A DNA stretch of 64,000 nucleotides, taken from contig JABEUN010000004.1 of NCBI GenBank assembly GCA_013044385.1, positions 1 to 64,000 of the forward strand, written 5' to 3'. The notes beneath the pieces were generated by a model that worked only from the letters and a program-made list of their open reading frames with translations, was not told the DNA's origin and did no database searches. This document shows, piece by piece, positions 5,152-8,001 of this stretch (position 1 is its first letter; every line of letters begins with the position of its first letter). The stretch comes from Acidimicrobiaceae bacterium. GTDB lineage: Bacteria > Actinomycetota > Acidimicrobiia > Acidimicrobiales > Acidimicrobiaceae. Made by a program: the position numbers and the translations under genes.

Positions 5152-5568
5152 CTACTTCTTTGTCTCCCAGAAGATCGTGTCGATCTCCCCGATCTGGCTG
5201 ATTAGCTTGTCGGCGACGGCGGTGTCGGTCGTCTTCTTGGACTCACCCGCAGTCTTGGTTGCCGACCAGAAGAGATCGTGAAGCTGCGGATGCGCCTCAA
5301 GATGGGCGGGCTTGAAGTAATCAGTCCAAAGAACCCAGAGGTGGTGCTTGACCAATTCAGCGCGCTCCTCCTTAATCGATATGGCGCGCTCCTTGAATAC
5401 GGGATCGTCGGATGCATTGAACTTTTCCATGCAGGCTTTGACCGAATCAGCCTCGATCTTCGCCTGTGCGGGATCGTAAACTCCACACGGCAGGTCGCAG
5501 TGGGCACTGACCGTATTCGGCTTGGAGAAATGGTCCATGGCCATCAGGATCTTCGGAATTATCTTCAA
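5152..5568 (-). CDS. sodN: Nickel superoxide dismutase
   Basis: The protein dismutates superoxide with a single Ni ion held by the N-terminal nickel hook. Residues 23-32 of the precursor read HCDLPCGVYD, the exact hook with His1, Cys2 and Cys6 of the mature enzyme. The 22 residues before it form the propeptide removed during maturation. I chose TTG 5568 over the longer TTG at 5589 because a perfect AAGGAG (5574-5579) lies 5 bases upstream. Total length is 138 residues, with four-helix-bundle character, as expected. The likely maturation peptidase is encoded divergently at 5697. A terminator follows at 5091-5123. Confidence 0.95.
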   Translation of the reverse strand: MKIIPKILMAMDHFSKPNTVSAHCDLPCGVYDPAQAKIEADSVKACMEKFNASDDPVFKERAISIKEERAELVKHHLWVLWTDYFKPAHLEAHPQLHDLFWSATKTAGESKKTTDTAVADKLISQIGEIDTIFWETKK

Positions 5569-5696
5569 GTGTGCTCCTTTGTCCTTCAACAGACTTTCAA
5601 CTCCAACAATAGCTCAATTCACAACTGTCTTCCCGTGCCGGTATCCAAGCAAGTCAGACGGGTGGAAGCTATTGTGATGAATTGAGGAGGCGACTG

Positions 5697-6101
5697 TTGA
5701 ATTCACTGAAAAACTCGGCTCTAGAGCTACTTGCTAAGGCGGGAACGCTCCTTTTACTAGGGAGTTCTGCCGCGGCCATTGTCAAGCTAGCCAAGCGCTA
5801 CCAGCGCTTTGAGGTAGTTGGAGATTCGATGGAGCCTACGTTGTCGGCTGGCGATCGACTTCTAATACGTCGGGGTGCGGTGCCAGCCGAGGGCTCGTTG
5901 ATTGTCTTTCCTGATCCAAGGGACCAGGATCATCTGCTGATAAAGCGCGCTCAAAGGGTTTCCGCTGGAGAAGTAGTGGCCGTTGGTGACAACCCGATTG
6001 CATCGACGGACTCAAGGCACTTTGGGCTGGTGGCGGTGTCGGACTTGATAGGAGTTGCGCTACTCAAGTATTCCCCAAGCGCCTCGGTCAGGCGGCTCTA
6101 G
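5697..6101 (+). CDS. sodX: Nickel-SOD maturation protease (S26 signal-peptidase family)
   Basis: A 134-residue S26-type peptidase: one N-terminal hydrophobic segment (about residues 10-30), then the nucleophile motif VVGDSMEPTL and the general-base Lys in LLIKRAQRV, followed by GDNPIASTDSRHFG. The small size and divergent position next to sodN identify it as the peptidase that trims the sodN propeptide to expose the Ni-binding His1. TTG 5697 is preferred over in-frame TTG 5682 because GAGGAGG (5684-5690) sits 6 bases before it. About 130 bases separate the two divergent starts. Confidence 0.88.
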   Translation: MNSLKNSALELLAKAGTLLLLGSSAAAIVKLAKRYQRFEVVGDSMEPTLSAGDRLLIRRGAVPAEGSLIVFPDPRDQDHLLIKRAQRVSAGEVVAVGDNPIASTDSRHFGLVAVSDLIGVALLKYSPSASVRRL

Positions 6102-6138
6102 CCAGATATGATCAACTGCGGATCTAAGGTAGTAACTT

Positions 6139-6639
6139 ATGCAGCCCCTAAATGAGACGATCAAGAGCCTCATCGAACCTTCGTTTGTAGCGGACTTGGA
6201 TTCGATTTCTACCGACGAGCTTCGCAAGCGGCGCGAGCTTGCCTCCACTACCGAACAGATAATTTCATATGCTCGTCGCTTGGTTCAGGCGAAGATAGAT
6301 ATAGAAGTGGCAGCTGAAGGGTCAGCAAGCTCCAGCGAGCTGATAAGCCACATGACGTCGATTCTTTCCGGCTCAGCGCTGCACTCCTCGACAGGCAGAC
6401 TAGTGGATGTGGATATCTCCGAAGAGCAGGCCAAGGTGGCTGATGAGTACATGAACGAGATTCTGGCCGAGCAACCCGACTCGATCCTCGAAGCCCTTAG
6501 GCACGCCGAAAATGTCATGTCGGCGATAAGGCATGACCTTCATCTCGTTATCGATAGCTTGGGGACCGAGCTAGTCGACAGGTATAGGACCGGCAAGGCG
6601 ACGGTCGACGTTCTGCTAGACGAGGTTACGAATCACTGA
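6139..6639 (+). CDS. RsiG-like c-di-GMP-responsive anti-sigma factor
   Basis: The 166-residue protein contains the signature E-x3-S-x2-R-x3-Q-x3-D known from RsiG, the anti-sigma factor of WhiG in Streptomyces, at residues E39, S43, R46, Q50 and D54. A second copy is at E124, S128, R131, H135 and D139, with His in place of Gln. In Streptomyces RsiG each helix of an antiparallel coiled coil carries one copy and together they bind a c-di-GMP dimer. The regions around both copies here are helical and charged with no membrane segment. No cognate sigma factor is visible nearby. The match is by motif only. A TAAGGT hexamer 8 bases before ATG suggests a nearly leaderless transcript. Confidence 0.72.
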   Translation: MQPLNETIKSLIEPSFVADLDSISTDELRKRRELASTTEQIISYARRLVQAKIDIEVAAEGSASSSELISHMTSILSGSALHSSTGRLVDVDISEEQAKVADEYMNEILAEQPDSILEALRHAENVMSAIRHDLHLVIDSLGTELVDRYRTGKATVDVLLDEVTNH

Positions 6640-6762
6640 GAAAAAGAGCAGTGGATGACCTACAAGCAGGAATCTCTTCGGGAGTGCTCGGGTTGAACAC
6701 TCGGGTGGAGTGTGAGTTGCAGATCTGACTCCATCGGATCACAAGCGCGGAGGACTTTATAG

Positions 6763-8001
6763 ATGCGGATAGCGGTCATCTCCTATCACACGTCTCCTCT
6801 CGCCCAGCCGGGCGTTGGAGATGGTGGCGGCATGAACGTATACGTCAAGAGCCTCTCGTCCGCATTGGCTAGGTCGGGCATGGATGTCGACGTCTATACG
6901 AGAGCCATAAGTGAGTCCCAAAAGCCGGTGGAGCAGGTGGAGCCGGGATTCTGGGTGCATAATATCGCCGCTGGCCCAATGGATCATCTGGACAAAGAGA
7001 AACTTTTTGACCATCTCGACGAGTTCAGGCAGGCCATCCTGCTGAGAATGTCGCTAAATAAGGAGCTGGTTCCGGATCTGATCCATGCGAACTACTGGCT
7101 TTCGGGGATCGTCGGGCACGCTCTCAAGCATGAACTCGAACTCCCATTGATCACCACGTTCCACACGCTTGAGATGGTCAAGTCAAACGGTCGGAGTGCG
7201 CCCGATGACGGCTTCGACTCGGACCTTCGGATTGGGTTTGAACGGGCGATCATGGGCTGTTCGGACACAATCCTGGTCTCCTGTGATGCCGAATTTGACC
7301 AGCTCTCCGAACTATATGGAGTGCAGCCGACACAGTTGGAGGTCGTCACACCCGGAGTGGAGAAGGCCTTTTTTGCCCCCGGAAACAAGTCGATGGCCAG
7401 AAGGGCACTCGGTCTTCCGGAGGGAAAGAAGCTGATCGTTTCTGTCGGCAGGATCCAGCCGCTCAAGGGGACGGCCTTGGCGGTCGAGGCCGCCACGCAG
7501 ATTGCCGACAGCTTTGACTTGGAGGTGGTTGTAGTAGGTGGCCCGTCAGGTGTGGATGGGGCGGCGGAATTCGATCGGATGAAGTTGATTGCGGCCGATG
7601 CCGGTTTCTCAGACCGGTTGCGAATAGTCCCCCCGCAACCCCATGAAACACTCTCCAGCTTTTACAGGGCGGCTGATCTGTGTCTGATCAGTTCGAGGAC
7701 CGAATCGTTCGGTCTCGTGGCACTCGAGGCGGCGGCATGTGGAATTCCGATCATCGCCTCGAAAGTGGGAGGCCTGACCACGCTGATCGATCACGGCAGA
7801 ACCGGTCTTCTTGTCGAAGAGCGTACCGCACAGGGCTTCGCAGCAGGTGCGCACGAACTCCTTTCGAATCCGATGCGGATGGGGGCTATGGCAAACGCAG
7901 CGGTTCATCGTTCTGCCCGATACACGTGGTCGAAGGCGGCCAGGGACTTTGCACTTGTGGCACGGCGCCTCTTCGAGCGTGAACTTCTCAGTTGCGGGTA
8001 G
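6763..8001 (+). CDS. mshA: MshA-like glycosyltransferase (mycothiol synthesis)
   Basis: A GT4-family retaining glycosyltransferase of 412 residues. The N-terminal half has the donor/acceptor motif GVGDGGGMNVYV and HANYWLSG; the C-terminal half has GRIQPLKG and SRTESFGLVALEAAACGIP, the E-x7-E motif. MshA joins N-acetylglucosamine to inositol phosphate, the first step of mycothiol, the main thiol of actinobacteria. The following YbjN gene and nearby proC reproduce the arrangement seen around actinobacterial mshA, supporting this over another GT4. GCGGAGGAC precedes ATG 6763. Other mycothiol genes are not in the window. Confidence 0.85.
   Translation: MRIAVISYHTSPLAQPGVGDGGGMNVYVKSLSSALARSGMDVDVYTRAISESQKPVEQVEPGFWVHNIAAGPMDHLDKEKLFDHLDEFRQAILLRMSLNKELVPDLIHANYWLSGIVGHALKHELELPLITTFHTLEMVKSNGRSAPDDGFDSDLRIGFERAIMGCSDTILVSCDAEFDQLSELYGVQPTQLEVVTPGVEKAFFAPGNKSMARRALGLPEGKKLIVSVGRIQPLKGTALAVEAATQIADSFDLEVVVVGGPSGVDGAAEFDRMKLIAADAGFSDRLRIVPPQPHETLSSFYRAADLCLISSRTESFGLVALEAAACGIPIIASKVGGLTTLIDHGRTGLLVEERTAQGFAAGAHELLSNPMRMGAMANAAVHRSARYTWSKAARDFALVARRLFERELLSCG

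Follow-up and report, generated by a model that had tools for sequence, protein, structure and literature searches.

A twin-motif RsiG homologue in an Acidimicrobiaceae genome and its probable part in linking c-di-GMP to flagellar transcription

The rsiG gene and its neighbours

The window, by which we mean the whole 64,000-nucleotide stretch of DNA that was analysed, carries an open reading frame with an ATG start and a product that matches the Pfam RsiG family (PF22802) at 1.6e-15, with 57 bits against a cut-off of 27 bits (Table 1). The match comes in two stretches, the second of which lies over the region of the second c-di-GMP signature and, taken alone in a whole-genome search, falls below the cut-off. 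Among PDB sequences, the best match is RsiG of Streptomyces venezuelae (6pfj_T), at 5.4e-9 over residues 3-160. The product does not match the FlgM profile (PF04316) as it does that of RsiG, and any likeness to FlgM is one of functional analogy only. Judged by its sequence and its modelled structure, the gene is a true rsiG, a member of a known family. RsiG proteins that have taken up c-di-GMP keep the sigma factor WhiG inactive.

Immediately ahead of rsiG, at a distance of 37 bp, lies a gene for a SodX-type maturation protease of nickel superoxide dismutase, and the two are possibly co-transcribed. The gene that follows rsiG resembles mshA, and the original prediction held that this neighbour gives no clue to the controlled genes. 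That view stands as far as the regulon is concerned, but the pairing of rsiG with mshA is itself conserved: in 30 rsiG loci from the order, a MshA homologue adjoins rsiG in 22, SodX in 9 and SodN in 8. The sodN-sodX-rsiG-mshA neighbourhood (positions 5152-8001 of the window) is thus a conserved one, in which the gene for a c-di-GMP anti-sigma factor keeps company with genes for mycothiol and nickel superoxide dismutase.

No defensible WhiG-type promoter was found for rsiG itself. Across the window (1-64000) there are six matches to TMAAG-N15-GCCGATAA with at most two mismatches, compared with 1.59 expected (0/100 shuffles); these are weak matches, and the one at 5916-5943 falls within sodX. 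The start of the contig (141-2985) is occupied by broken transposase- and integrase-like open reading frames, as judged by eye from their translations.

Table 1. Features of the rsiG locus, in positions of the window.
Feature	Position	Strand	Evidence
Nickel superoxide dismutase, sodN	5152..5589	-	TIGR02753, 6.8e-45
Ni-SOD maturation protease, SodX type	5682..6101	+	TIGR02754, 3e-18
rsiG, twin-motif RsiG-family anti-sigma factor (ATG to stop)	6139..6639	+	166 aa, PF22802, 6pfj_T, AlphaFold2, Foldseek
Predicted long helix, residues 25-60, equivalent of RsiG alpha1	6211..6318	+	DSSP of AlphaFold2 model
c-di-GMP signature 1, E39-S43-R46-Q50-D54	6253..6300	+	Direct reading; 24-sequence conservation
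Predicted long helix, residues 116-151, equivalent of RsiG alpha5	6484..6591	+	DSSP of AlphaFold2 model
c-di-GMP signature 2, E124-S128-R131-H135-D139 (His in stacking position)	6508..6555	+	Direct reading; 24-sequence conservation
mshA-like mycothiol glycosyltransferase	6763..8001	+	TIGR03449, 8.7e-117; 390 bits, below the cut-off of 462.5

Two c-di-GMP signatures on a predicted helix pair

The first signature is an exact fit to the pattern E(X)3S(X)2R(X)3Q(X)3D. The second follows this pattern except at residue 135, where Gln is replaced by His. When the protein is aligned with 23 relatives, residues E39, S43, R46, R47, E124, S128, R131 and R148 are invariant, and Q50, D54 and D139 are conserved in at least 90% of the 24 sequences. 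Of 28 relatives from the order whose second motif was matched, 16 have His where the window protein has H135, 12 have Phe and none has Gln, as counted with a regular expression that admitted Q, H or F and would miss other residues. Since His or Phe is usual at this position, H135 is normal for the order, and we dropped the idea that it signals a changed function.

We therefore consider it very improbable that this protein has kept the RsiG fold while losing the ability to bind c-di-GMP, for example owing to H135. Although this residue deviates from the strict signature, and binding is predicted from sequence, His or Phe is the rule there within the order and every other motif residue is retained. 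Moreover, an exchange of Gln for His has been reported in motif 1 of RsiG proteins, and His was judged fit for the same stacking contact, albeit in that other motif (PMC8325347). The window protein is thus predicted to bind c-di-GMP.

An AlphaFold2 model computed from the 24-sequence alignment (pLDDT 88.3, pTM 0.80) contains two long helices, each of which bears one signature, with residues 39-54 in the helix 25-60 and residues 124-139 in the helix 116-151. When the model was compared with the PDB by Foldseek, the top two matches were the S. venezuelae RsiG chains 6pfv_T and 6pfj_T, with a probability of 1.00, and the next match had a probability of 0.14. Because the E-values (1.6e-3 and 8.2e-3) and TM-scores (about 0.55) for the RsiG chains are moderate, the fold result backs the RsiG identity without proving it. 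The moderate TM-score may reflect the fact that the solved RsiG chains are in complex.

The original prediction had described an RsiG-like protein with two copies of the signature at these residues, carried by an antiparallel helix pair, and each part of this description is borne out. The profile search leads to PF22802 and not to an unrelated family, nine of the ten signature residues vary little or not at all across the 24 sequences, and the model has the antiparallel pair, with RsiG chains as its top structural matches.

By both sequence and fold, the closest known system is RsiG of S. venezuelae (6pfj, 6pfv), a monomeric twin-motif protein that shares with the window protein its length class and the two signatures on antiparallel helices. 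The two differ in that the window protein has His in motif 2, a change found in motif 1 of other RsiG proteins (PMC8325347). They differ also in setting, the window gene being placed between sodX and mshA in a group that is flagellated and probably non-sporing, and whose cultured member is non-sporulating. The RsiG of Rubrobacter radiotolerans (7lq2-7lq4) carries the same signature, but it has one motif and must dimerise, whereas the window protein holds both motifs in one chain, and the sequence match between the two is weak (E 0.08). R. radiotolerans is a unicellular bacterium that does not sporulate, and type IV pili have been proposed as the process under RsiG control there (PMC8325347). 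According to the same paper, no sigma/anti-sigma complex other than RsiG-WhiG is known to be a target of c-di-GMP, and the outputs of this pair are sporulation and type IV pili.

WhiG in relatives and in this genome

Among 148 genomes of the order (Acidimicrobiales-like), RsiG was found in 96 and WhiG in 87, the latter counted from about 235 bits upwards, and 84 genomes have both (Fisher p=6e-24, kinship ignored). All three family mates (G032, G082 and G117) have both, and in each of them one FliA-type gene passed 1e-36. The product of the G082 gene matches S. venezuelae WhiG at 1.3e-88 and FliA at 1.4e-44. Among the named relatives of the WhiG proteins of the family, most belong to metagenome genomes of Acidimicrobiales or Acidimicrobiia. 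The residues by which WhiG contacts c-di-GMP form a K-x3-G-R motif (PMC8325347), which is retained in G082 and G117 and reads R-x3-S-R in Acidimicrobium ferrooxidans (G032). The RsiG of A. ferrooxidans scores 23.9 bits, the lowest value in the family and below the Pfam cut-off, with both motifs complete. Going by these sequences, co-variation of the pair is possible in this species.

In the genome that contains the window (G000, 95% complete), no FliA or WhiG gene was found, the best match reaching 104.6 bits against a cut-off of 189.6. The genome-wide search that the original prediction had called for was thus negative in this genome and positive in all three family mates. The same prediction had raised the prospect of a new controlled sigma factor. 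We rejected this as the first choice, because relatives pair RsiG with an ordinary WhiG, whose local absence is accounted for by the likely assembly gap at a contig end. In the family mates, whiG lies directly ahead of rpsB-tsf-pyrH-frr, at a distance from rpsB of about 130 to about 890 bp. In this genome, about 590 bp lie between rpsB and the upstream end of its contig (C59), and that interval contains no whiG sequence. Since the contig breaks off where whiG would be expected, a gap in the assembly is likely, and the simplest reading, which we infer from gene order, is that whiG most likely lies in this gap. The xerC-like gene linked to whiG was not found elsewhere in this genome. A xerC-like match on contig C4 was set aside as the lost neighbour, since it resembles XerD and has pyrG and a nudix gene next to it, and the further matches, on C57, C12 and C13, represent other recombinases.

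It is improbable that whiG has truly been lost from this genome, leaving RsiG as an orphan or as a restraint on another sigma factor. Besides the negative search itself, 12 of the 96 RsiG genomes are without a found WhiG, but this is about the number of misses expected from incomplete assemblies, and here the contig breaks at the expected site with the linked xerC-like gene also missing. As for another sigma factor, the three sigma-70 genes of this genome look primary-type, because they possess region 1.2 and read V-x3-A-K/R where WhiG has K-x3-G-R. Furthermore, G000, G043 and G073, in none of which WhiG was found, keep a WhiG-type site upstream of flhA, with 2, 1 and 2 mismatches, respectively.

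Flagellar genes as a probable output

FlhA and flagellin are present in all four family genomes, as are many GGDEF genes (18 matches in G000). No FlgM match above the cut-off was found in these four genomes, and three of the control genomes scored above it; the profile could miss an FlgM that has diverged. FlgM is described as lacking in the later flagellated actinobacterial classes, Acidimicrobiia included (PMC10746217), and the published record of A. ferrooxidans describes a motile species that forms no spores (PMC3035218).

WhiG-type sites (TAAA-N14-16-GCCGATAA, with at most two mismatches) occur in 8 of 157 upstream regions at flagellar loci, some of which overlap, as do the controls; the permuted mean is 1.6, and 0 of 120 permutations reach 8. 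The spacing range and the mismatch limit were picked while viewing the four family genomes, and a test restricted to flhA in 31 flagellated members of the order adds 27 fresh genomes. In this test, 16 of the 31 have a WhiG-type site upstream of flhA (permuted mean 0.66, maximum 4, 0 of 200 reaching the observed count), and most of these sites read T[AC]AAG-N15-GCCGATAa. For the three genomes of this test that have neither RsiG nor WhiG (G081, G116 and G147), the flhA site is never better than four mismatches (Mann-Whitney p=0.026), although with only three genomes the loss of the site together with RsiG and WhiG is only suggestive. In each of the four family genomes, flbD-motA is also preceded, at 24-47 bp, by a GTGCCGA core. 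The sites in G000 are imperfect, with four mismatches at flbD, two at flhA, three at cheA and two at flagellin, the last about 215 bp upstream of its gene. Genome-wide scans with the strict form TAAA-N15-GCCGATAA gave no excess in G117 (32 versus 34 in the control) and none in G032; scans limited to N15 were weak and uneven across genomes, and the spacing of 14-16 gave a clearer result.

These promoter data point to flagella, a process unassigned to RsiG in the RsiG papers searched, and so lend support to the earlier suggestion that the controlled process could be new. No flagellar role for RsiG was found in the literature searched, but because most subscription journals and all preprints fell outside that search, this absence is weak evidence of novelty.

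An unlikely alternative is that the RsiG-WhiG pair works as already known and mainly controls type IV pili and the enzymes of c-di-GMP turnover, as in Rubrobacter, with flagellar sites that are minor or otherwise regulated. In its favor, G000 has a PilM-type pilus gene, RsiG is associated more strongly with PilM (p=3.7e-6) than with FlhA (p=4e-3) across the order, a WhiG-type site (TAAGGATGTGGACTGATTGTGCCGATTA; L171:5829, on G000:C5) precedes a GGDEF gene by 112 bp, and R. radiotolerans provides a precedent for pilus output (PMC8325347). However, the type IV pilus clusters, which were scanned without a permutation test, have few or misplaced sites, whereas the flagellar sites are enriched and conserved. 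In addition, A. ferrooxidans has the RsiG-WhiG pair and no PilM match. The site before the GGDEF gene recalls the c-di-GMP feedback predicted in Rubrobacter.

We favor a known kind of switch that probably ties c-di-GMP to flagellar transcription. RsiG would be a single chain whose two long antiparallel helices, with one signature each, clamp a c-di-GMP dimer. Loaded in this way, it would bind to WhiG, which belongs to the flagellar (sigma-28) clade of sigma factors, and keep it silent. In flagellated Acidimicrobiales, WhiG would probably transcribe flhA and flbD-motA, and possibly cheA and flagellin. High c-di-GMP would thereby arm RsiG and turn flagellar genes off, with RsiG standing in for the missing FlgM. 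The family, the motifs, the fold, the co-occurrence, the gene order, the promoter enrichment and the lack of a detected FlgM are the direct evidence on which this proposal draws. From these we infer binding of c-di-GMP and of WhiG by RsiG, the presence of whiG in G000 and a flagellar output, and we give the explanation as a whole, including a whiG hidden by the gap, a probability of roughly two in three. We lean slightly towards the broader claim that in flagellated Acidimicrobiia without FlgM the twin-motif RsiG is the anti-sigma factor of the flagellar regulon, with c-di-GMP directly governing flagellar transcription by way of a sigma/anti-sigma complex.

FlgM, the classical anti-sigma-28 factor, would have in common with RsiG the role of restraining a sigma factor of the flagellar clade. 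Nevertheless, the two sequences are unrelated, and FlgM was not detected in the family to which the window genome belongs. Control of FlgM is exerted by export through the flagellum, whereas that of RsiG is exerted by c-di-GMP. If our proposal is correct, the WhiG-RsiG pair gains, beside sporulation and type IV pili, a role that fits the flagellar ancestry of WhiG, and the restraint of the flagellar sigma factor in flagellated Acidimicrobiia without FlgM is explained. The idea is testable in A. ferrooxidans, a cultured, motile and non-sporing species that carries RsiG and WhiG.

Flagella cannot be the sole or universal target of the pair, because 66 of the 96 RsiG genomes are without FlhA and 37 genomes with both RsiG and WhiG have neither FlhA nor PilM. 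These 37 genomes indicate that RsiG-WhiG must have further targets. Likewise, WhiG may not serve as the flagellar sigma factor in every genome, because in some flagellated members of the order (flhA upstream regions L253, L270, L252 and L268, in G024, G044, G089 and G122, respectively) a further sigma gene of the FliA type, scoring about 170-205 bits, lies no more than a few kb from flhA. In several of these genomes the element before flhA looks different (TCAT-N15-GCCGAT), as if it were read by that second FliA-type sigma factor.
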